From Acidovorax sp. 106 (lineage in GTDB: Bacteria > Pseudomonadota > Gammaproteobacteria > Burkholderiales > Burkholderiaceae_C), in the NCBI RefSeq assembly GCF_003663825.1, contig NZ_RCCC01000001.1, positions 4,100,501-4,164,500 of the forward strand: a stretch of 64,000 nt of DNA, written 5' to 3'. Shown in pieces: positions 7,284 through 20,099 of the stretch; the first letter of the stretch is position 1, and each line of letters opens with the position of its first letter. Made by a program: the position numbers and the translations under genes. The notes below the pieces were generated by a model, which saw only the letters and a program-made list of their open reading frames with translations, had not been told where the DNA came from and ran no database searches.

Positions 7284-8630
7284 TTACAGCTTTTTCACCA
7301 GCACCTGGCTCTTGCGGTCCCAGTTGTATTTGCGCTTGCGCGCATCGGGCAGCCAGTCAGGGTCCACGGGCTGGAAGCCGCGCTTGATGAACCAGTGCAT
7401 GGTGCGGGTGGTCAGCACAAAAATGCTTTCCAGCCCCATGGCGCGGGCGCGTTGTTCGATGCGCTTGAGCAGCTTTTCGCCATCGCCCGTGCCTTGGCTT
7501 TGGGGCGACACGGTGACCGCAGCCATTTCGGCCGTCTTGGCCTCGGGGTAGGGGTACAGCGCGGCGCAGCCAAAAATCACGCCGTCGTGGTCGATGATGG
7601 TGTAGGTAGCAATGTCGCGTTCGATCTCGGTGCGGTCGCGCTTGACGAGCGTGCCGTCCTTTTCAAACGGTTCAATCAACTGCAGGATGCCCCCCACATC
7701 GTCAATCGTGGCTTCGCGCAGTTCTTCGAGCTTTTCGTCGATGACCATGGTGCCGATGCCATCGTGCACATACACCTCCAGCAGCAGCGACCCGTCCACC
7801 GAGAACGGCAGGATGTGGCTGCGCTCCACCCCGGCTTTGCAGGCCTTGACGCAGTGCTGCAGATAAAAGCCCGTGTCTGATGGCACCTGGGCGGCAGGCA
7901 ACTGCGCCAGCAGGGCCTGGGCCGCGGCCAGCGGCAGCTCGGTGTCGATGGGGTTGTCTTCGCTCTCGGGCTCGGTCGGCTGCATGCGAATGCCAGGCAC
8001 TTCGGTCAAGAAGATCAGCTTGTCGGCCTGCAGCTCAATCGCCACGCTGGTGGCCACTTCTTCCATGCTCAGGTTGAAGGCCTCGCCGGTGGGCGAAAAG
8101 CCGAAGGGTGAAAGCAGCACCAGTGCGCCCATGTCCAGTGTGCGGGTGATGCCCGCCACATCCACCTTGCGCACCAGGCCTGAGTGCTGAAAGTCCACCC
8201 CATCCACAATGCCCACGGGCCGTGCGGTGAGGAAGTTGCCAGAAATGACGCGCACCGTAGCGCCAGCCATGGGCGTGTTGGGCAGTCCCTGGCTGAAGGC
8301 GGCTTCAATCTCATAGCGCAGTTGGCCGGCGGCCTCCTGGGCACAGTCCAGCGCCACCGAATCGGTGATGCGGATGCCGTGCGAATACTTGGCCGCATGC
8401 CCCTTGGCGGCGAGCTGCTCATTCACCTGGGGCCTGAAGCCGTGCACCAGCACGATCTTGACGCCCATGGCCTGGATCAGCGCCAAGTCTTGCGCAATGT
8501 TGTGCAGCTTGCCCGCCGCAATTGCCTCACCCGTCAGCCCGATCACAAAGGTCTGGTTGCGAAACTTGTGGATGTAAGGCGCCACAGAGCGAAACCAGGG
8601 CACAAAGGTGAAGTTGAAAACAGCGGACAT
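7284..8630 (-). CDS. argA: N-acetylglutamate synthase
   Basis: 448 residues. The N-terminal amino-acid-kinase-like domain (to about residue 290) contains the VLVHGFRPQVNEQL segment. The C-terminal GNAT acetyltransferase domain carries the acetyl-CoA loop QSQGTGDGEKLL. It makes N-acetylglutamate from glutamate and acetyl-CoA, the first step of arginine synthesis; in this classical form the kinase-like domain serves arginine feedback inhibition. The start MSAVFNFTFVPWF at 8630 is the family N-terminus; the longer open frame to 8834 was rejected. No other arginine gene is adjacent. Confidence 0.95.
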   Translation of the reverse strand: MSAVFNFTFVPWFRSVAPYIHKFRNQTFVIGLTGEAIAAGKLHNIAQDLALIQAMGVKIVLVHGFRPQVNEQLAAKGHAAKYSHGIRITDSVALDCAQEAAGQLRYEIEAAFSQGLPNTPMAGATVRVISGNFLTARPVGIVDGVDFQHSGLVRKVDVAGITRTLDMGALVLLSPFGFSPTGEAFNLSMEEVATSVAIELQADKLIFLTEVPGIRMQPTEPESEDNPIDTELPLAAAQALLAQLPAAQVPSDTGFYLQHCVKACKAGVERSHILPFSVDGSLLLEVYVHDGIGTMVIDEKLEELREATIDDVGGILQLIEPFEKDGTLVKRDRTEIERDIATYTIIDHDGVIFGCAALYPYPEAKTAEMAAVTVSPQSQGTGDGEKLLKRIEQRARAMGLESIFVLTTRTMHWFIKRGFQPVDPDWLPDARKRKYNWDRKSQVLVKKL

Positions 8631-8745: not shown

Positions 8746-10881
8746 TCATTGCGCCGCGCACTGGCCCTGAAATTGGGCCAACCGCTGCGCAAAGGGCTCC
8801 AGCACCAGCGTCTCGTCCGCTCCCACCGGGGCACTGGTGCGAATCTGCAGCCCCTGGGCGCATAGCAGTTGCTGCATCTCGGTCTGGGCGATCATGCCGT
8901 GCGCCATCAGTGCGCTGACCAGGGCGTTGAGCGTTGCCTGGTGTTCGCTCAGCAGTGCTTGCGCGCGCTGGTACTGCGTTTGCAACAGGGCTTCAATGGC
9001 AGCGTTGCTGGGTGCGACATCGGTGTTGATGTGGTTGTCCATTTCCAGCGTCACATCGGTGCGGCTGATGCGGCCATCAAAACCCAGGTGCCTGACATAG
9101 CGGGCGGCCTCAGCGGTGACCTGCTTGTAGTCCTGCTCGGCACCAGTGGTGCAGGCCATCTCGCCAAACACCATGGCTTCGGCCACGCGCCCGGCCAGGC
9201 CCACGCACATCATGTCCAGTGCGTTTTGCCGCGTGGTGACCTTCAGGCCCGCAAAGCTGTTGTAGCCGCCCTCGAACGAGGCAATGTTGATCTTGACCTC
9301 TTGCGGCGCCTGGCCAAACAACAGGCAGTACACCAGCGCATGGCCCGCTTCGTGCACCGCCAGCAGCGCCCGAAAATCGGCATTGGCCCGCTGCTTGAGC
9401 CGGTTCAGTTCCAAAGAGACTGCAAAGCGGCTCTCTCGCTCGGTTCCGCTCGCGTTCCGCCCGGACACCCGCAATTCGCGCTTGTCTGGGCTCAGGCCAA
9501 TGGCAAATGTCTGGGCCAGGGGCAATTGTTGTTCGAGCACCCACAGCGCTGCATTCACCAAGTTGGCGCTGAGGATGGCGTGCACCGAAGAAAACAGCGG
9601 CCGCGTGCCCTGCGCCGGAAACACTGCGTTGGCGTACAGCTCATCGCGCAGGTCTTGCCCGATGTGGAACTGCACACCACATTGGGCGGCAATGTCGTGC
9701 ACATAGCGGTGGCACAGATTCTGGATGAGGCGCTCGTACGTGGCTTTGCTGAACGAGGGGTAGATCACATGCTCGTTGCCCAGCCGCGCAATTTGCTCGG
9801 GCTTGAAGCGCTCGCCCAGCGCCTTTTTCACGTCGATGAGCGAGAGCTTGCGGGTCAGGCGGTGAAAGATATCGGCGTCGGTGTCGCAGTCTTCCACGCG
9901 CTGTGCGGTCTCGTGGTACATCTCGTCCAGGTTGCCGCACACAAACACCAGCAGCTTGCTGTAGTCCGTCTCCCAGGCCTGGCTGGACTGCTGGAACCGG
10001 GTGTACAGCGACTGCACCTTGCCGGGCGGCCACTGCATGATCTCGCCCAGGGGCTCTTGCAGCTTGAGCATGCGTTTGAGTTCCTGCGCGTCCCATGCGT
10101 CCAGCTGAAAGCGGTAGGCTGCCTTTCCTGCGCGTTTTTCGTCTTCCTCGTCCTCGGCCCGCTCTGCGTCGTACTGGGCATCGGCCAGCTTGCGCTCGAT
10201 GTTGGACAGCGCGCTGAGCGCAGGTGGCAGGCGCCCGTCGGACAGCAGCGTCCACACGTCCTGGTAGCGCTCCACCTTCACATCCCCACCTTTGGTGTCC
10301 ACCGTGCGAAAGCGCTGGAATTCGTCCAGCACCAGCATGCCCGGTGCGCCTTCGTGGATGCCAGAGTCACCCAGCATGCCTGAGATGGTGGAGCTGCGGT
10401 AGCTCGCGCCGTGGCTGAAGCCGTCCATCTGCACTTCAACAAAGCGGTCGTAAAAGCCCAGCAGCTGGGCCAAGCGCCGCGTGAGCTGGGTCTTGCCTGT
10501 GCCCGTCAATCCCCAAAGGCAGACGATGACCGGGCGGCTGATGAGCTGTGGCAGCACGTACCAGGCGCGGATGGCGTCGATGACACGGTCAATCACATCG
10601 TCGATGCCAAACAGCTCTGCCTTGAGCTGCGCAGCGGCATGGGCCAGGGTTTGCTGGCGCAAGGCCAGCGTGGCTGTGGTGGGCGGGTTGTGCGAGATGG
10701 GCTGGCCAGATGGGTCGGATGGGATGGATAGGCCCTGGACAGCTTGGGCTGCCGCAGCACCTGCCTTTGCCTGCGCCGCCCCTGCGGGCTGGTGAGGGCC
10801 GAAGCCCTGGGTGAGCCGCCCCTGCAGCCCGTGGGCTCCATGCAAGAGCGACCCGTTGGAGTACGGATTCGTTTCAGTCAT
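8746..10881 (-). CDS. Soluble Clp-like AAA+ ATPase fused to an FtsH-type (M41) metallopeptidase
   Basis: 711 residues. Residues 1-70 are low-complexity. An AAA+ module follows with Walker A GLTGTGKT (124-131), Walker B MLVLDEF (182-188), a sensor-1 asparagine near 317, and a Clp/HslU-like box ERFKPEQIARLGN (358-369). A long charged helical insert at about 225-290 interrupts the module. The C-terminal half is an M41 peptidase: zinc motif HEAGH at 510-514 and TTGAEQD at 578-584 supplying the probable third ligand, as in FtsH. No transmembrane segment is visible, unlike true FtsH, and the ATPase resembles the Clp type rather than the FtsH type. I infer a cytosolic ATP-dependent protease. The start overlaps the preceding 81-codon gene by 8 bp, implying coupling. 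Confidence 0.85.
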   Translation of the reverse strand: MTETNPYSNGSLLHGAHGLQGRLTQGFGPHQPAGAAQAKAGAAAAQAVQGLSIPSDPSGQPISHNPPTTATLALRQQTLAHAAAQLKAELFGIDDVIDRVIDAIRAWYVLPQLISRPVIVCLWGLTGTGKTQLTRRLAQLLGFYDRFVEVQMDGFSHGASYRSSTISGMLGDSGIHEGAPGMLVLDEFQRFRTVDTKGGDVKVERYQDVWTLLSDGRLPPALSALSNIERKLADAQYDAERAEDEEDEKRAGKAAYRFQLDAWDAQELKRMLKLQEPLGEIMQWPPGKVQSLYTRFQQSSQAWETDYSKLLVFVCGNLDEMYHETAQRVEDCDTDADIFHRLTRKLSLIDVKKALGERFKPEQIARLGNEHVIYPSFSKATYERLIQNLCHRYVHDIAAQCGVQFHIGQDLRDELYANAVFPAQGTRPLFSSVHAILSANLVNAALWVLEQQLPLAQTFAIGLSPDKRELRVSGRNASGTERESRFAVSLELNRLKQRANADFRALLAVHEAGHALVYCLLFGQAPQEVKINIASFEGGYNSFAGLKVTTRQNALDMMCVGLAGRVAEAMVFGEMACTTGAEQDYKQVTAEAARYVRHLGFDGRISRTDVTLEMDNHINTDVAPSNAAIEALLQTQYQRAQALLSEHQATLNALVSALMAHGMIAQTEMQQLLCAQGLQIRTSAPVGADETLVLEPFAQRLAQFQGQCAAQ

Positions 10882-11119
10882 TGAATATTTGGTTTTGAAT
10901 CGCCTTGCGCAAGGCGACGTTGTCCGCACGGCGCTGGGCCCCACGGGTTCGGATGTGCTTGCCCGCCGCGCTGGACAGGCTGCGTTGGGCCATGGCGGCG
11001 GCTACAGGGTTTCGGGGCGGGCCCGAGGCTTCGAGTTTCAGCACCAGGGGCTGCTTCATGCGGCGCAGCTTTTTGATCTCACCCTGGGCGTATGCCCGAG
11101 ACAGTTTTTTTGCACTCAT
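10874..11119 (-). CDS. Small highly basic protein coupled to the AAA-M41 protease
   Basis: 81 residues, very rich in Lys and Arg, with no Cys and no membrane segment. The N-terminus MSAKKLSRAYAQGEIKKLRR and the C-terminal part, rich in Arg and Ala, are both likely helical. I do not recognise a named family. It ends inside the start of the protease gene (shared ATGACTGA), so the two are co-translated. It may be an adaptor, a substrate or a nucleic-acid-binding partner of the protease; none of these is shown by the sequence. The start has only a weak GGAA about 10 bases upstream. A terminator-like hairpin ends about 20 nt before the start codon. Confidence 0.7.
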   Translation of the reverse strand: MSAKKLSRAYAQGEIKKLRRMKQPLVLKLEASGPPRNPVAAAMAQRSLSSAAGKHIRTRGAQRRADNVALRKAIQNQIFND

Positions 11120-11139
11120 ACGTTGTGCGTTCCACAAAC

Positions 11140-11168
11140 AAAAAACCCCGGCGATGTAGCCAGGGCTT
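11140..11168 (-). terminator. Intrinsic terminator in the leader of the AAA-M41 operon (attenuator)
   Basis: On the minus strand a stem of about 9 bp (GCCCTGGC pairing with GCCGGGGT, two wobbles, loop TACATC) is followed directly by six Ts. It lies downstream of a likely promoter and leader peptide but about 20 nt before the start of the 81-codon gene, so it would stop transcription before the operon. Confidence 0.7.
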
Positions 11169-11172
11169 GTGG

Positions 11173-11241
11173 AGCGCAAAGTAAAGCGCTGAGCCTTGGC
11201 TGAACTGAGTGTGCACAGTCCAGCCGGGGCGGTGGACTGTG
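11173..11241 (-). promoter_or_regulatory. Leader hairpins between leader peptide and terminator
   Basis: An exact 9-bp stem CACAGTCCA (11214-11222) and TGGACTGTG (11233-11241) begins one nucleotide after the leader-peptide stop in transcript order. A second small stem, AGCGC/GCGCT (11173-11177 and 11186-11190), lies between it and the terminator. A ribosome at the leader stop would mask the first stem, the usual arrangement in attenuators. Confidence 0.55.
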
Positions 11242-11242
11242 G

Positions 11243-11272
11243 TCAGGTGTGTGCGAAGAAGTTGGCAGACAT
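11243..11272 (-). CDS. Leader peptide MSANFFAHT
   Basis: A 9-codon reading frame with a near-perfect Shine-Dalgarno GGAGGT (11279-11284) six bases upstream of ATG. It encodes Met-Ser-Ala-Asn-Phe-Phe-Ala-His-Thr and stops one base before the leader hairpin. Its size, strong ribosome site and position ahead of a terminator are those of a regulatory leader peptide. Two adjacent Phe codons could be control codons, but that is weak evidence for phenylalanine sensing. Confidence 0.55.
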   Translation of the reverse strand: MSANFFAHT

Positions 11273-11336
11273 ATCGGGACCTCCAGTGCTTTCAGCGCCG
11301 TGCCGGGGTGGCTGGCTTTGCTTGAAAGAAGGCGCG

Positions 11337-11365
11337 ATTGTGGCGGCGTGGAGCCTCGCCTGCAA
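11337..11365 (-). promoter_or_regulatory. Candidate promoter of the attenuated AAA-M41 operon
   Basis: Minus strand: TTGCAG, 17-bp spacer, CACAAT. Transcription would start near 11330 and give a leader of about 210 nt that contains the leader peptide and hairpins. Confidence 0.4.
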
Positions 11366-11465: not shown

Positions 11466-14400
11466 ATGTCTTCTTCTGATCCGCGTTTGTCCGAGCTTTC
11501 CCCCGCTTCTGCCCCGCCTGGTGCCCAGCCCATATCCCCCCTGCGCATCACGTTCCCCGAATCCCTGCCCGTGTCGGGCAAGCGCGAAGAAATCATGGAG
11601 GCCATCGCCAAGCACCAGGTCATCATTGTTTGCGGGGAGACTGGCTCGGGCAAAACCACCCAGCTGCCCAAGATTGCGCTGGCGCTGGGCCGGGGCAAGT
11701 GCAACGCCAAACCTGGCCAGAAAGGCCAGCTCATCGGCCATACCCAGCCGCGCCGCATTGCCGCCAGCAGCGTGGCTAAGCGCATTGCCGAAGAGCTGAA
11801 CACGCCGCTCGGTGACGTGGTGGGCTTCAAGGTGCGCTTCCAGGACCGCCTGAGCCGCGATGCCTCCGTTAAGCTCATGACCGACGGTATCTTGCTGGCC
11901 GAGACGCAGACCGATCCTCTGCTCAAGAATTACGACACCATCATCATCGACGAGGCGCACGAACGCAGCCTCAACATCGACTTCCTGCTGGGCTACATCC
12001 GCCAGATCCTGCCGCGCCGGCCGGACCTCAAGGTCATCGTGACCTCGGCCACCATCGACGCCGACCGGTTTGCCAAGCATTTCGAAAGCGCCAAGGGCCC
12101 CGCCCCCGTCATCATGGTGTCGGGCCGCACCTTCCCGGTCGAGCAGCGCTACCGCCCGTTTGAAGACAGCCGCGACTACGGTCTTAACGAAGCCATTGCC
12201 GATGGCGTAGACGAACTCTGGCAGGGCAACGCGGCGGGCGACATCCTGGTCTTTCTGCCTGGCGAGCGCGAGATCCGCGAAGCGGCCGACCACCTGCGCA
12301 AGCACCTGTCGCACCAGCCCGTGATGCGCAATGCCGAGGTGCTGCCGCTGTTCGCACGCCTGTCGCAGGCGGAGCAGGACCGAATCTTTGACGGCCACAC
12401 GGGCCGCCGCATTGTGCTGGCCACCAACGTGGCCGAAACCTCGCTCACCGTGCCGGGCGTCCGGTACGTCATTGACGCAGGCACAGCGCGCGTCAAGCGC
12501 TACAGTTTTAGAAGCAAGGTGGAGCAGCTGCTGGTCGAGCCCGTCAGCCAGGCCGCCGCGAACCAGCGTGCTGGCCGCTGCGGCCGGGTGGCCAACGGCA
12601 TCTGCATTCGCCTGTACGACGAGGCCGGTTTCAATGGCCGCCCCCGTTTTACCGACCCCGAAATCCTGCGGTCATCGCTGGCAGGCGTCATCCTGCGCAT
12701 GAAGTCGCTGCACCTGGGCGACGTGACGCAGTTCCCCTTCATCGAGGCGCCCTCGGGCCGCGCGATTGCCGACGGCTACCAGCTACTGGCCGAGCTGGGC
12801 GCCGTGGACGACGCGAACGAACTCACACCGATGGGCGTGGAGCTGTCGCGCTTGCCGCTGGACCCGCGCGTGGGCCGCATGATCATCGAGGCGCGCGACC
12901 GCAAGGCGCTCGATGAAGTGCTGGTGATTGCCAGCGCCCTGAGCGTGCAGGACGTGCGCGACCGCCCCATGGAGGCGCAGCAGCAGGCCGACCAGGCGCA
13001 CGCCAAGTTCGACGACGACAAGAGCGAGTTCAGCGGCTACCTCAAGCTGTGGAAGTGGATCAACGAGGCCCGGGGCGGCGCGCCCAGCCTGCCATCGGCC
13101 CGTGCCCAAAAGGCCATGGCCGCGCAGAAAGCGCCGTCGCAGGCCTTCTTGCCGGTGGCGCAGCGCAGCAGCGGCGCAAGCCCTGTGGAGGCCCCGCCCA
13201 GTGTTACCGCCACCGCACCCGCCGCCACCCACAAGCTCAGCAACCGCCAATACGAGCAGTTGCTGCGCCAGAACTTCATCAGCATCCGGCGCCTGCGCGA
13301 GTGGCGCGACATCCACACCCAACTGCTCACAGTGGTCACCGAGCACAAGTGGCAGATCAACACCCAGCCCGCCAGCTATGAGCAGCTGCACCTGTCGATG
13401 CTGGCCGGGCTGCTGGGCAACGTGGGCGCTAAGAGTGACGAAGAAGACTGGTACCTGGGCGCGCGCGGCATCAAGTTCTACAAACACCCCGGTGCGCACC
13501 TGAACAAGAAGCCCGGCCGCTGGATCGTGGCGTCGGAACTGGTAGAGACAACGCGCCTGTTTGGCCGGGGCATTGCCGCCATTGAGCCGCAGTGGCTGGA
13601 GCAGATTGGCGGGCATGTGCTGCGCAAGCAACTGCTCGACCCGCACTGGGAGAAGAAGTCTGCCGAGGTGGTGGCGCTGGAGCGCGCCACGCTCTACGGC
13701 ATCGTGGTCTACAACAACCGCCGCGTGAACTTCGGCAAGGTAGACCCGCATGCCGCGCGCGAGGTGTTCATCCGCGAGGCTCTGGTGGGCGGCAACTGGG
13801 AAACCAAGCTGCCGTTTCTGGCCGCCAACCAGAAGCTCATCGCCAAGGTCGAAGAACTGGAGCACAAGTCCCGCCGGCAGGACGTGCTGGTGGACGACGA
13901 ATTGATCTACGCCTTCTACGACCAGCAACTGCCGCCCGAGGTGTGCAGTGGCCACAGTTTTGAAGCCTGGTACCGCGACGAAAGCCGCAAGAACCCCGAC
14001 CTGCTGAAGCTCACCCGCGAAGAGCTGATGCGCCACGAGGCCGCAGGCATCACCACCAACGCCTTCCCCAAGACCGTGCGCTTGGGCGGCGTGGACTGCG
14101 CCGCCACCTATCTGCACGAACCTGGCGACGCGCGCGACGGCATCACCGTGACCATCCCGCTCTTTGTGCTCAATCAGGTGAGCGACGAGCGTTGCGAATG
14201 GCTGGTGCCCGGCATGCTCAAGGACAAGATCCAGGCGCTGCTCAAAAGCCTGCACCAGCGCCCGCGCAGCCGCTTCGTGCCGCTGCCCGAGTCGGCCGCG
14301 CGGCTGGCCGAGCTGTTCAACGCGCCTGAGCGTTTTGGCACCGGCAGCCTGACGGACGCACTGCTCAAGCAGGTGCGCGACGAGACCTCGCTCGATGTGA

Positions 14401-15566
14401 AGCGCGCCGACTTCAAGCTCGACATGCTCAGCCCGCATTTGTTCATGAACTTCCGCGTGGTGGACGAACATGGCCGCCAGCTCGGTCACGGCCGCAACCT
14501 GGGCGCACTCAAGGCCGAGTGGGGCGCCAAAGCGCGCGGTGCGTTCCAGGCGCTGGCGGGGCTCAAGCTCGGTGATGCGGCGGCGCAGGGCGCAAAATCT
14601 GAATCAAATTCGGCCCCAGCGCTTGATAATAAAGCGCAAGCAGCTATCAAATCAGGAGTAAAAGGCGCAGCCCCCATTGCGGCGAAACCCGCAAGCGCTG
14701 CGCCATCGGCCCCAGCAGGCCAGCGCTACACCACCTGGACATTCGGCGAGCTGCCTGAACTCATGGAGATCAGGAAGGCCGGTCAGACGCTGATCGGCTT
14801 CCCGGCGCTCATCGACGGCCGCGACGCCGTGACCATCGAAGTCTTCGACGAACCCGAGGTGGCCGCCGCCAAACACCGCGCGGGCCTGCGCCGCCTGTTT
14901 GCGCTGCAGATCAAAGATGCGCTCAAGTACCTCGAAAAGAACATCCCCGACCTGCAGAAGATGGCCGTGGCCTACATGCCGCTGGGTACCCAGGAAGAGC
15001 TGCGCACCCAGATCATCGACGTGGCCCTGGACCGCGCTTTTCTGCTGGACCCGCTGCCCACCGACGAGTACGCCTTCAAGCGCCGCGTGGAAGAGGGCAG
15101 GGGCCGCCTCACTCTGATCGCCAACGAGGTCGCGCGTCTGGCCTCCACCATCCTCACCGAATACGCGGCTGCCGCCCGCAAGATCAAGGACACCAAGAAC
15201 GCGCCCGACGCCACAGCAGACGCGCTGCAGCAGCTACAACGCCTGGTGCCCAAGAACTTCATCGCCGTGGCTCCCTGGGCGCAGCTGGCCCACTATGCCC
15301 GCTACCTCAAGGCCATCACCCTGCGCCTGGACAAATACCGCGCCGACCCCGCCCGCGACGCCGCCAAACTGGCCGAACTGCGTCCGCAGGAGCAGCGTTA
15401 CTGGCGCCTGGTGGCCGAGCGCAAGGGGGCGGTGGATGCGCGCATGCAAGAGCTGCGCTGGCTGCTGGAGGAGCTGCGTGTGAGCTTCTTCGCGCAGGAG
15501 CTGCGCACACCCCAGCCGGTGAGCGTGAAGCGGCTGGACAAGCTGTGGGCGCAGATCCAGAGTTGA
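11466..15566 (+). CDS. hrpA: ATP-dependent RNA helicase HrpA
   Basis: 1366 residues, the length expected for HrpA. DEAH-box helicase motifs: Walker A GETGSGKT (57-64), DEAH (162-165), SAT (194-196), then motifs V and VI near QRAGRCGR. The helicase-associated and OB-fold regions and the long C-terminal DUF3418 region follow. The family unwinds RNA and takes part in mRNA processing and rescue of collided ribosomes. One oddity: about residues 1047-1064 are encoded by an interspersed DNA repeat inserted in frame in an Ala/Lys-rich linker before the C-terminal domain. Confidence 0.95.
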   Translation: MSSSDPRLSELSPASAPPGAQPISPLRITFPESLPVSGKREEIMEAIAKHQVIIVCGETGSGKTTQLPKIALALGRGKCNAKPGQKGQLIGHTQPRRIAASSVAKRIAEELNTPLGDVVGFKVRFQDRLSRDASVKLMTDGILLAETQTDPLLKNYDTIIIDEAHERSLNIDFLLGYIRQILPRRPDLKVIVTSATIDADRFAKHFESAKGPAPVIMVSGRTFPVEQRYRPFEDSRDYGLNEAIADGVDELWQGNAAGDILVFLPGEREIREAADHLRKHLSHQPVMRNAEVLPLFARLSQAEQDRIFDGHTGRRIVLATNVAETSLTVPGVRYVIDAGTARVKRYSFRSKVEQLLVEPVSQAAANQRAGRCGRVANGICIRLYDEAGFNGRPRFTDPEILRSSLAGVILRMKSLHLGDVTQFPFIEAPSGRAIADGYQLLAELGAVDDANELTPMGVELSRLPLDPRVGRMIIEARDRKALDEVLVIASALSVQDVRDRPMEAQQQADQAHAKFDDDKSEFSGYLKLWKWINEARGGAPSLPSARAQKAMAAQKAPSQAFLPVAQRSSGASPVEAPPSVTATAPAATHKLSNRQYEQLLRQNFISIRRLREWRDIHTQLLTVVTEHKWQINTQPASYEQLHLSMLAGLLGNVGAKSDEEDWYLGARGIKFYKHPGAHLNKKPGRWIVASELVETTRLFGRGIAAIEPQWLEQIGGHVLRKQLLDPHWEKKSAEVVALERATLYGIVVYNNRRVNFGKVDPHAAREVFIREALVGGNWETKLPFLAANQKLIAKVEELEHKSRRQDVLVDDELIYAFYDQQLPPEVCSGHSFEAWYRDESRKNPDLLKLTREELMRHEAAGITTNAFPKTVRLGGVDCAATYLHEPGDARDGITVTIPLFVLNQVSDERCEWLVPGMLKDKIQALLKSLHQRPRSRFVPLPESAARLAELFNAPERFGTGSLTDALLKQVRDETSLDVKRADFKLDMLSPHLFMNFRVVDEHGRQLGHGRNLGALKAEWGAKARGAFQALAGLKLGDAAAQGAKSESNSAPALDNKAQAAIKSGVKGAAPIAAKPASAAPSAPAGQRYTTWTFGELPELMEIRKAGQTLIGFPALIDGRDAVTIEVFDEPEVAAAKHRAGLRRLFALQIKDALKYLEKNIPDLQKMAVAYMPLGTQEELRTQIIDVALDRAFLLDPLPTDEYAFKRRVEEGRGRLTLIANEVARLASTILTEYAAAARKIKDTKNAPDATADALQQLQRLVPKNFIAVAPWAQLAHYARYLKAITLRLDKYRADPARDAAKLAELRPQEQRYWRLVAERKGAVDARMQELRWLLEELRVSFFAQELRTPQPVSVKRLDKLWAQIQS
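14604..14657 (+). repeat. Two-hairpin interspersed repeat, copy B, inside hrpA
   Basis: Begins TCAAATT, then CAGCGCTTGAT...AAAGCGCAAG and CAGCTATCAAATC, matching the plan of the intergenic copies at 1576 and 25848. It stays in frame, adding a Ser/Ala/Lys-rich linker to HrpA. Confidence 0.65.
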
Positions 15567-19978: not shown

Positions 19979-20099
19979 GGCGCCCGCAACCCTAGGCCCT
20001 TCCCCAGCCACAGTCGCATCCGCCAATCGGTTCAGCCGTGTCGCGGAAGGTTTCTTAACCAGCTAATGCTTTCTCAAGGAAAGCGGAGGTCAGCGGAAT

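Follow-up and report, generated by a model that had tools for sequence, protein, structure and literature searches.

The region in front of a small basic protein gene, designated ORF1, in the analysed window (the whole 64,000-nucleotide stretch of Acidovorax sp. 106 DNA) probably acts, at a likelihood that we put at about 0.65, as a ribosome-dependent transcription attenuator that reports the timely completion of a short leader reading frame and not which amino acid is short. The full layout of ribosome-controlled attenuation, recognised earlier from the letters of the window, is present at this locus and is kept in relatives; two of its alternative helices (1:2 and 2:3) covary, and its terminator (4:5) is maintained.

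All elements lie on the minus strand, and the promoter, ribosome-binding site, nine-codon frame, 9-bp hairpin, terminator with six Ts and next gene were each recovered where the sequence-only reading had placed them. The promoter-like TTGCAG-N17-CACAAT (11337..11365; −35 hexamer at 11365-11360 and −10 hexamer at 11342-11337) would be expected to start transcription at about 11330 and is followed by the Shine-Dalgarno (SD) sequence GGAGGT (11279..11284) and by the putative leader ORF MSANFFAHT (11243..11272), which consists of nine codons and a TGA stop (ATG TCT GCC AAC TTC TTC GCA CAC ACC TGA). Segment 1, CACAGTCCA (11233..11241), occupies bases 2-10 past the stop and forms one arm of hairpin 1:2. 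Its pairing partner is contained in CCCCGGCTGGACTGTG at 11229-11214, within segment 2, GCCCCGGCTGGACTGTG (11214..11230), which can pair with either segment 1 or segment 3. Segment 3, CAGTTCAGCCAAGGC (11193..11207), can in turn pair with segment 2 (anti-antiterminator) or with segment 4 (antiterminator), and segment 4, AAGCCCTGGCT (11158..11168), is a near copy of segment 2 and the 5′ arm of the terminator, the 3′ arm and T-run of which belong to segment 5, GCCGGGGTTTTTTG (11139..11152). The predicted terminator, AAGCCCTGGCTACATCGCCGGGGTTTTTTG (11168-11139), has 10 pairs and six Ts, against five pairs in each of the other two minus-strand terminator-like sites between 9000 and 13000. The ATG of ORF1 at 11119 follows the T-run block by 19 nt, in agreement with the distance of about 20 nt given originally.

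The leader accompanies ORF1 in relatives. A blastn search with 221 bases found one copy in each of 25 of 60 genomes, all within the genus, and of the 36 genus genomes taken first, these 25 were also the ones in which a protein search detected ORF1 (27 when all 40 were included); blastn found no leader in the other 11. Across the family, ORF1 was found at E 0.001 in 39 of 299 genomes and 25 of 141 genera, the weakest being short matches. Eighty named loci were fetched out of 95 encoding an ORF1 relative; they come from Acidovorax, Delftia, Hydrogenophaga, Ottowia, Paracidovorax, Comamonas, Xenophilus, Variovorax, Aquabacterium, Roseateles/Pelomonas/Mitsuaria, Rubrivivax, Caldimonas, Inhella, Vandammella and others, and the arrangement accompanies ORF1 across the Comamonadaceae and the Roseateles group. 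Among all 135 fetched loci (L001-L135, some genomes being included more than once), 121 parsed completely as leader ORF, core and terminator, a count conditional on the rules of the parsing script, which demanded a start ATG, a stop codon and the core motif, with a preference for TGA; 98 of the leaders are distinct from the stop codon on. The subsets of 40, 38, 37 and 33 leaders and the 23 clades referred to below were hand-picked from these 98 for clade spread and are not independent. Twelve loci were incomplete, among them L039, L040, L042, L047 and L082, in which the leader looks diverged or interrupted by eye, and two (L052 and L053) were not parsed, with the leader visible in both. Extra sequence apparently lies inside the leader of three Roseateles/Rubrivivax loci (L098, L099 and L047), where it pushes core and terminator end apart.

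A covariance model built from 38 leaders gave 23 matches of at least 43 bits in the 299 family genomes, and every one of them directly precedes an ORF1. In the genome of the window itself, the leader copy scored 88.8 bits and the next match listed 26.4. After a gap, the remaining matches scored 37 bits or less, and seven of those between 34 and 37 bits were fetched (L182-L188). Six of these are not this leader and come from genomes without an ORF1 match; the seventh, L188 (34.4 bits), precedes ORF1 and is a true but diverged copy, as is, judged by its position, a match in G157 (33.9 bits). Of the 39 family genomes in which ORF1 was matched, 16 gave no leader match of at least 43 bits: two of them (G157 and G335) carry 34-bit matches in place, four (G077, G205, G275 and G288, i.e., loci L040, L039, L047 and L042) have a leader that is diverged or interrupted by eye, two (G144 and G319; L054 and L055) have a short leader with a changed core, and the remaining eight are weak ORF1 matches. 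No Rfam leader family was matched at the locus at the gathering threshold; the only such match in the window is the sucA RNA motif RF01070 at 20014-20095 (+), with 89 bits.

The leader ORF has nine codons in 43 of the 98 distinct leaders, ten in 29, seven in 24, and 11 and six in one each, and it ends with TGA in 97 of them, a preference that the script slightly favours; in the Acidovorax-type alignment (24 of 25 loci, L011 being left out), all 24 leaders have nine codons, TGA and a GGAGG sequence. By eye, the SD of the leader is clear except in Variovorax, where it is weak or missing. The promoter of the window matches the consensus weakly (7/12), and a strict promoter scan lists none there. 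Over the 98 distinct leaders, the best hexamer pair upstream of the leader ATG scored 9-10/12 in 38, compared with 2 of 490 mononucleotide shuffles, and the cases printed were mostly TTGCCA or TTGGCA with a CACAAT-like −10; the same search upstream of the ATG found no pair in eight of the 98. Three further patterns were seen upstream of the leader SD. A small hairpin, GCAACGA(GC/AT)(A/G)ACCTTGC, with a varying stem and a nearly fixed loop, ends 27-35 nt before the leader ATG in 18 of the 98 distinct leaders (L033 to L083), from Paracidovorax, Ottowia, Xenophilus, Comamonas and others; a GGCGACGATC(A/G)ACCTCCCGGG-like stretch occurs in 20 Variovorax leaders, and a GGCGCCCACGACAGCGCC-like stretch in 20 Roseateles/Aquabacterium leaders. 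None of these patterns matched an Acidovorax-type leader in the scan of the 98. The ACCTT/ACCTCC of these stretches could, by complementarity, pair with the leader SD.

The 133 nt from the leader ATG to the T-run fold with −51.1 kcal/mol, compared with −33.5 ± 3.1 for shuffled sequences (z −5.7; reached by 0 of 200). The exact 9-bp arms noticed at the outset, CACAGTCCA and TGGACTGTG, are indeed present and begin at the second base past the leader stop; as a stable fold, hairpin 1:2 was rejected, since the minimum-energy fold consists of 2:3 and 4:5, in which the 3′ arm of the hairpin pairs with segment 3 instead. This hairpin is the outermost of four alternating helices, namely 1:2, 2:3, 3:4 and the terminator 4:5. 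Helices 1:2 and 2:3 are mutually exclusive, and both covary in the alignment of 38 sequences. For 1:2, 79% of the cells are paired, compared with 26-39% when one strand is slid, and 57 cells are double-changed, compared with 19.6 ± 3.7 in shuffles; the count of pair types is less striking, the same number being reached by 35 of 500 shuffles. For 2:3, the corresponding values are 87% paired against 20-53% slid and 22 double-changed cells against 9.0 ± 3.3. These shuffles, unlike the slides, ignore relatedness, so that kin sequences can exceed them without structure. The terminator, with 93% of its cells paired and hardly varying, is the most strongly kept part. Helix 3:4 is the weakest: 74.5% of its cells are paired and its covariation score exceeds the shuffles (1/500), but its double-changed pairs do not (486 of 500 shuffles reach the count) and a slide of +1 scores nearly the same. 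The refuting condition set by the sequence-only reading, a peptide or terminator without conservation in relatives, came out evenly split: the terminator is kept, leader length and stop position are kept within clades, and the peptide sequence is not.

Duplex energies point in the same direction. With the strands of 40 leaders swapped between species, the cognate duplex was the better one in 38 cases for 1:2 and in 36 for 2:3, compared with 28 for 3:4, 26 for 4:5 and 26 for 2:5; the pairings outside the model gave 17 (1:3), 15 (1:4) and 23 (2:4). Segment 2 resembles segment 4 so closely that pairing 2:5 is as strong as 4:5 (−19.7 and −19.5 kcal/mol), and these computed energies leave room for 2:5 to play some part outside the proposed model. 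With 1:2 closed, the preceding RNA sequesters the 5′ arm of the terminator to a value of 0.68, compared with 0.56 when the upstream RNA is dinucleotide-shuffled. The natural sequence exceeded the shuffled one in 20 of 23 clades, 36 of the 40 hand-picked leaders and 83 of 96 overall, where the clades are related and the p values indicative only; the test failed in L071 and L074 (Comamonas) and L086 (Aquabacterium).

The position of these helices relative to the stop codon assigns a role to the terminating ribosome. Segment 1 begins at base 1, 2, 3 or 4 past the stop in 31, 41, 6 and 20 of the 98 distinct leaders, i.e., at base 1-2 in 72, and the stop codon thus ends 0-3 nt before it. In published toeprints, the distance between the 30S edge and the first nucleotide of the P-site codon is 16 nt (PMC9226507). 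A ribosome holding the last sense codon in its P site would therefore cover about ten bases past the stop, which in the window takes in CACAGTCCA up to its last base; elsewhere, segment 1 can extend to base 12-15, and the cover there would be partial. The first base past the stop is 21-36 nt from the A of the leader ATG, and at this distance a ribosome at the start codon leaves segment 1 uncovered.

From this anatomy we infer the following course of events. A ribosome that arrives at the stop codon during transcription of the leader would cover segment 1; segments 2 and 3 would then pair, segment 4 would stay free, and the 4:5 terminator would form, leaving ORF1 and the protease gene behind it off. 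If no ribosome is loaded, or if it stalls in the first codons, hairpin 1:2 would form first and leave segment 3 free for segment 4, so that the terminator would come too late and transcription would read through into ORF1. Translation of the leader, pairing of 3:4 in the cell, the direction of the switch and the inducing condition would all have to be as assumed here. The original suggestion that the operon is induced when leader translation slows agrees with the logic of the alternating helices for an early stall; a late one, at or beside the stop, should keep the operon off. The sequence preceding the terminator may, in Acidovorax-like leaders, pair with the ORF1 SD as well: GCGCTCCACAA (11167..11177) can pair across the T-run with the ORF1 SD region, TTGTGGAACGC (11137-11127). 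Pairing of this type has a mean z of −3.4 against shuffles in 29 Acidovorax-like leaders and of −1.3 in all 89 tested, and the cognate pair beats the swapped one in 19 of 29 and 48 of 89, respectively, which is not decisive; a second, translational lock on ORF1 is plausible from these calculations for Acidovorax-like leaders only.

Such a switch must be kinetic, since the OFF structure nearly always wins at equilibrium: in the equilibrium model, whether a ribosome is present or not, 2:3 plus 4:5 prevails in nearly every one of the 33 leaders, the exceptions being L113 and L086. Before segment 5 is made, the model predicts for the window leader that a ribosome on the start codon gives 1:2 plus 3:4 and one on the stop codon 2:3, and that structures are mixed when there is no ribosome. 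The same responses to start and stop ribosomes were obtained for several Acidovorax-type leaders (L001, L003 and L023) but not for L012, L029 and L061, and the leaders of Comamonas, Roseateles, Paracidovorax and most Variovorax prefer 2:3 already at that stage. When only segments 1 and 2 have been transcribed, hairpin 1:2 has 6-11 expected pairs in all of the 33 leaders but L038 (3.9). The barrier from 1:2 to 2:3 has a median of 12.9 kcal/mol (range 7.8-18.7; at least 10 in 28 of 37 leaders). For the step from 3:4 to 4:5, the median is 10.3 kcal/mol (range 3.9-19.3), and all of these barriers are heuristic upper estimates. If 1e6-1e7 attempts per s are assumed, a barrier of 10 kcal/mol corresponds to 0.8-8 s, which is about the transcription time of the leader. 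The computed barriers thus allow a kinetic switch, in which a first-formed 1:2 could last for about as long as the leader takes to be transcribed.

The gene directly behind the leader is ORF1 (10874..11119, minus strand), which encodes a basic protein of 81 aa from an orphan family. Among the 120 homologues listed out of 690, the names go no further than “hypothetical” or “uncharacterized”; ORF1 had no match in Pfam, NCBIfam or PDB, its best value against PHROGs was 0.016, to a family without assigned function, and PADLOC gave no help either. Counted by eye, it has about 18 Lys/Arg and 4 Asp/Glu. Its predicted structure (pLDDT 76.5) is a string of separate helices with no compact fold, and the global confidence of its models is low (pTM 0.40 and 0.35, the latter for this structure). 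A resemblance of its C-terminal helix to bS20, seen by eye, was dismissed, as hhalign gave a probability of 0.2%. The end of ORF1 is overlapped by the start of a gene for an AAA plus peptidase M41 (FtsH-like) protein of 711 aa (8746..10881, minus strand), in which the M41 part is clear (Pfam Peptidase_M41, 8.6e-21) and the AAA part weak (2.2e-4); with 62 bits, the protein stays far below the cut-off of 600 of the FtsH equivalog model. Next downstream of it (7284..8630, minus strand) lies an argA-like gene of 448 aa (amino acid kinase plus acetyltransferase by Pfam), which was seen in 16 of the 80 fetched loci, these ending about 3 kb downstream.

The protease had at first been taken for the controlled gene. 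Judging from the gene neighbourhoods, however, the leader controls first of all ORF1, since leader and ORF1 also occur without the protease, as in 3 of the 27 genus genomes having ORF1 (G015, G018 and G035); the other 24 have a close protease. A distant second type, of 54-55% identity, is found in four genus genomes (G003, G019, G025 and G355), three of which (G003, G019 and G355) have this type only and no ORF1. Protease-like sequence occurs in 50 of the 80 named loci. Within about 3 kb downstream, no protease was found in 21 Variovorax loci (L114-L134) or in four Paracidovorax loci (L069, L072, L073 and L079) that retain the leader; L080, a Variovorax MAG, has one. A short gene containing M(Y/D)KVIVERPR is present downstream of ORF1 before the protease in L041 and without a protease in L053. 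A gene for an HrpA-like helicase with DUF3418 (Pfam; 11466-15566, plus strand) is the divergent neighbour. Such a gene adjoins ORF1 in 21 of the 80 named loci, from Acidovorax, Hydrogenophaga, Paracidovorax and Xenophilus, which makes the adjacency clade-specific.

An amino-acid-specific attenuator of the pheA, trp or his type, in which a shortage of charged tRNA for Phe or another residue stalls the leader ribosome, is one alternative and appears very improbable here. Phe does occur in 45 of the 53 distinct leader peptides and makes up 14% of the residues after Met (Ser 17%, Leu 12%, Thr 12%), and in the window the argA-like biosynthesis gene follows the protease. However, no recurring codon run was found among the 53 peptides, eight lack Phe altogether, Arg accounts for only 2.4% of the residues, and the Phe-Phe pair offered initially as a weak hint to the signal is present in only three, on which grounds Phe-specific sensing was rejected. 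The leader is rich in pyrimidines and poor in G (C 41%, T 31%, G 12%), a composition that by itself favours Phe, Leu and Ser and that selection for a structure-free leader would give. Moreover, neither ORF1 nor the protease gene is biosynthetic, and argA is only a candidate member of the transcript. The same RNA switch might instead be tuned to a single ribosome-targeting drug, or to slow termination at UGA by release factor 2, with a stall at a fixed place. The nearly invariant TGA (subject to the script preference mentioned above) and the clade-specific peptide endings HT, APA, ID and NT would suit this reading, and known uORFs are described as sensing antibiotics (PMC12121999, PMC9226507). 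We nevertheless consider it unlikely, given that these endings differ between clades and that a ribosome held at the stop would cover segment 1 and should keep the gene off. What stays constant as the peptides change from clade to clade is the set of RNA strands.

Two further alternatives were weighed. In one, the basic ORF1 protein would bind the conserved GCCGCCCCGGCTGG core in segment 2 and steer the switch itself, the leader peptide setting only the basal state. In favour of such autoregulation, the 98 parsed leaders retain the core, in part because the script demanded it, each leader match of at least 43 bits precedes an ORF1, and the protein is very basic and predicted to be helical. Against this, the core diverges in L039, L040, L042 and L082 and is explained by its pairing with segments 1 and 3, which renders the putative binding rather unlikely. 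In the other, the leader would be plainly constitutive, its terminator trimming read-through or ending a separate small RNA, and the short ORF would be fortuitous. That the terminator is the most strongly kept part and that at equilibrium the RNA almost always folds into the terminated form would accord with this; a reason would be needed, however, for the covariation of two helices that exclude each other and for a stop codon placed 0-3 nt ahead of segment 1 in the 98 distinct leaders, and a merely constitutive leader is correspondingly improbable.

The attenuator that reports leader completion, as preferred here, shares its plan with trp-type attenuators, which likewise combine a leader peptide and alternating hairpins with an intrinsic terminator as the last of them. 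Leaders of the trp type carry regulatory codon runs, of which there is none here, and they terminate without a ribosome, whereas the present anatomy predicts read-through. One added alternating hairpin under the stop codon would thus, as a rule of parity, reverse the outcome for the untranslated leader. Judged by its sequence features, the element is a member of the ribosome-dependent attenuators in the wide sense, and its variant features are the extra outer hairpin under the terminating ribosome and the independence of codons.

Among the described systems, PA5471.1-armZ of Pseudomonas aeruginosa is similar in its short leader ORF, in termination upon full translation and in a target outside biosynthesis; ribosome stalling, deletion of the leader or an early stop raises the downstream gene there (PMC13041342). 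According to the same account, it differs in that segments 3 and 4 make up its terminator, that the response studied there involves codons Q3 and F4, and that the target armZ encodes a MexZ anti-repressor (PMC13041342). The vmlR leader of Bacillus subtilis is described with a comparable set of a uORF, an anti-antiterminator, an antiterminator, a terminator and an SD-sequestering hairpin; its uORF lies within the anti-antiterminator hairpin, which a drug-stalled ribosome inside the uORF blocks (PMC9226507). In the present leader, the covered strand lies past the stop and belongs to the extra outermost helix 1:2, which would reverse the sign of a ribosome at the leader end. The duf1127 uORF of Sinorhizobium meliloti is reported to read ribosome availability, with the RNA and not the peptide sequence being of importance and with a small protein gene induced if ribosomes are not loaded in time, as proposed here; its element, as outlined in that source, is located at the uORF start and presumably involves Rho, unlike alternating helices with an intrinsic terminator (PMC12218461). 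The toiL uORF of Escherichia coli topAI is similarly presented as a multipurpose uORF for translation stress, which in that presentation acts on topAI translation and Rho-dependent termination and not on an intrinsic terminator of the leader (PMC12121999). Among the open-licence papers that were searched for attenuators, leader peptides and term-seq/uORFs, no description of the present leader was seen. A weak candidate named “Burkholderiales-1”, which appears without details in the part of PMC2864571 concerned, may be the same element.

A more far-reaching version of the proposal is speculative, and we hold it to be possible but doubtful. The leader would be a family-wide, codon-independent sensor of ribosome arrival, with an outer anti-anti-antiterminator hairpin under the terminating ribosome, that switches on a module for ribosome protection or rescue, consisting of ORF1 as a ribosome-associated factor, the M41/AAA protease and, in some clades, the divergent hrpA; E. 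coli HrpA is reported to rescue stalled ribosomes (PMC13159725). If the attenuator as preferred here is right, a compact RNA circuit gauges the pace of translation against that of transcription without a codon code and has been kept in many genera of one bacterial group, tied to a single uncharacterised family of small proteins. The translation stress that is guarded against and the role of ORF1 would thereby become directly testable questions.
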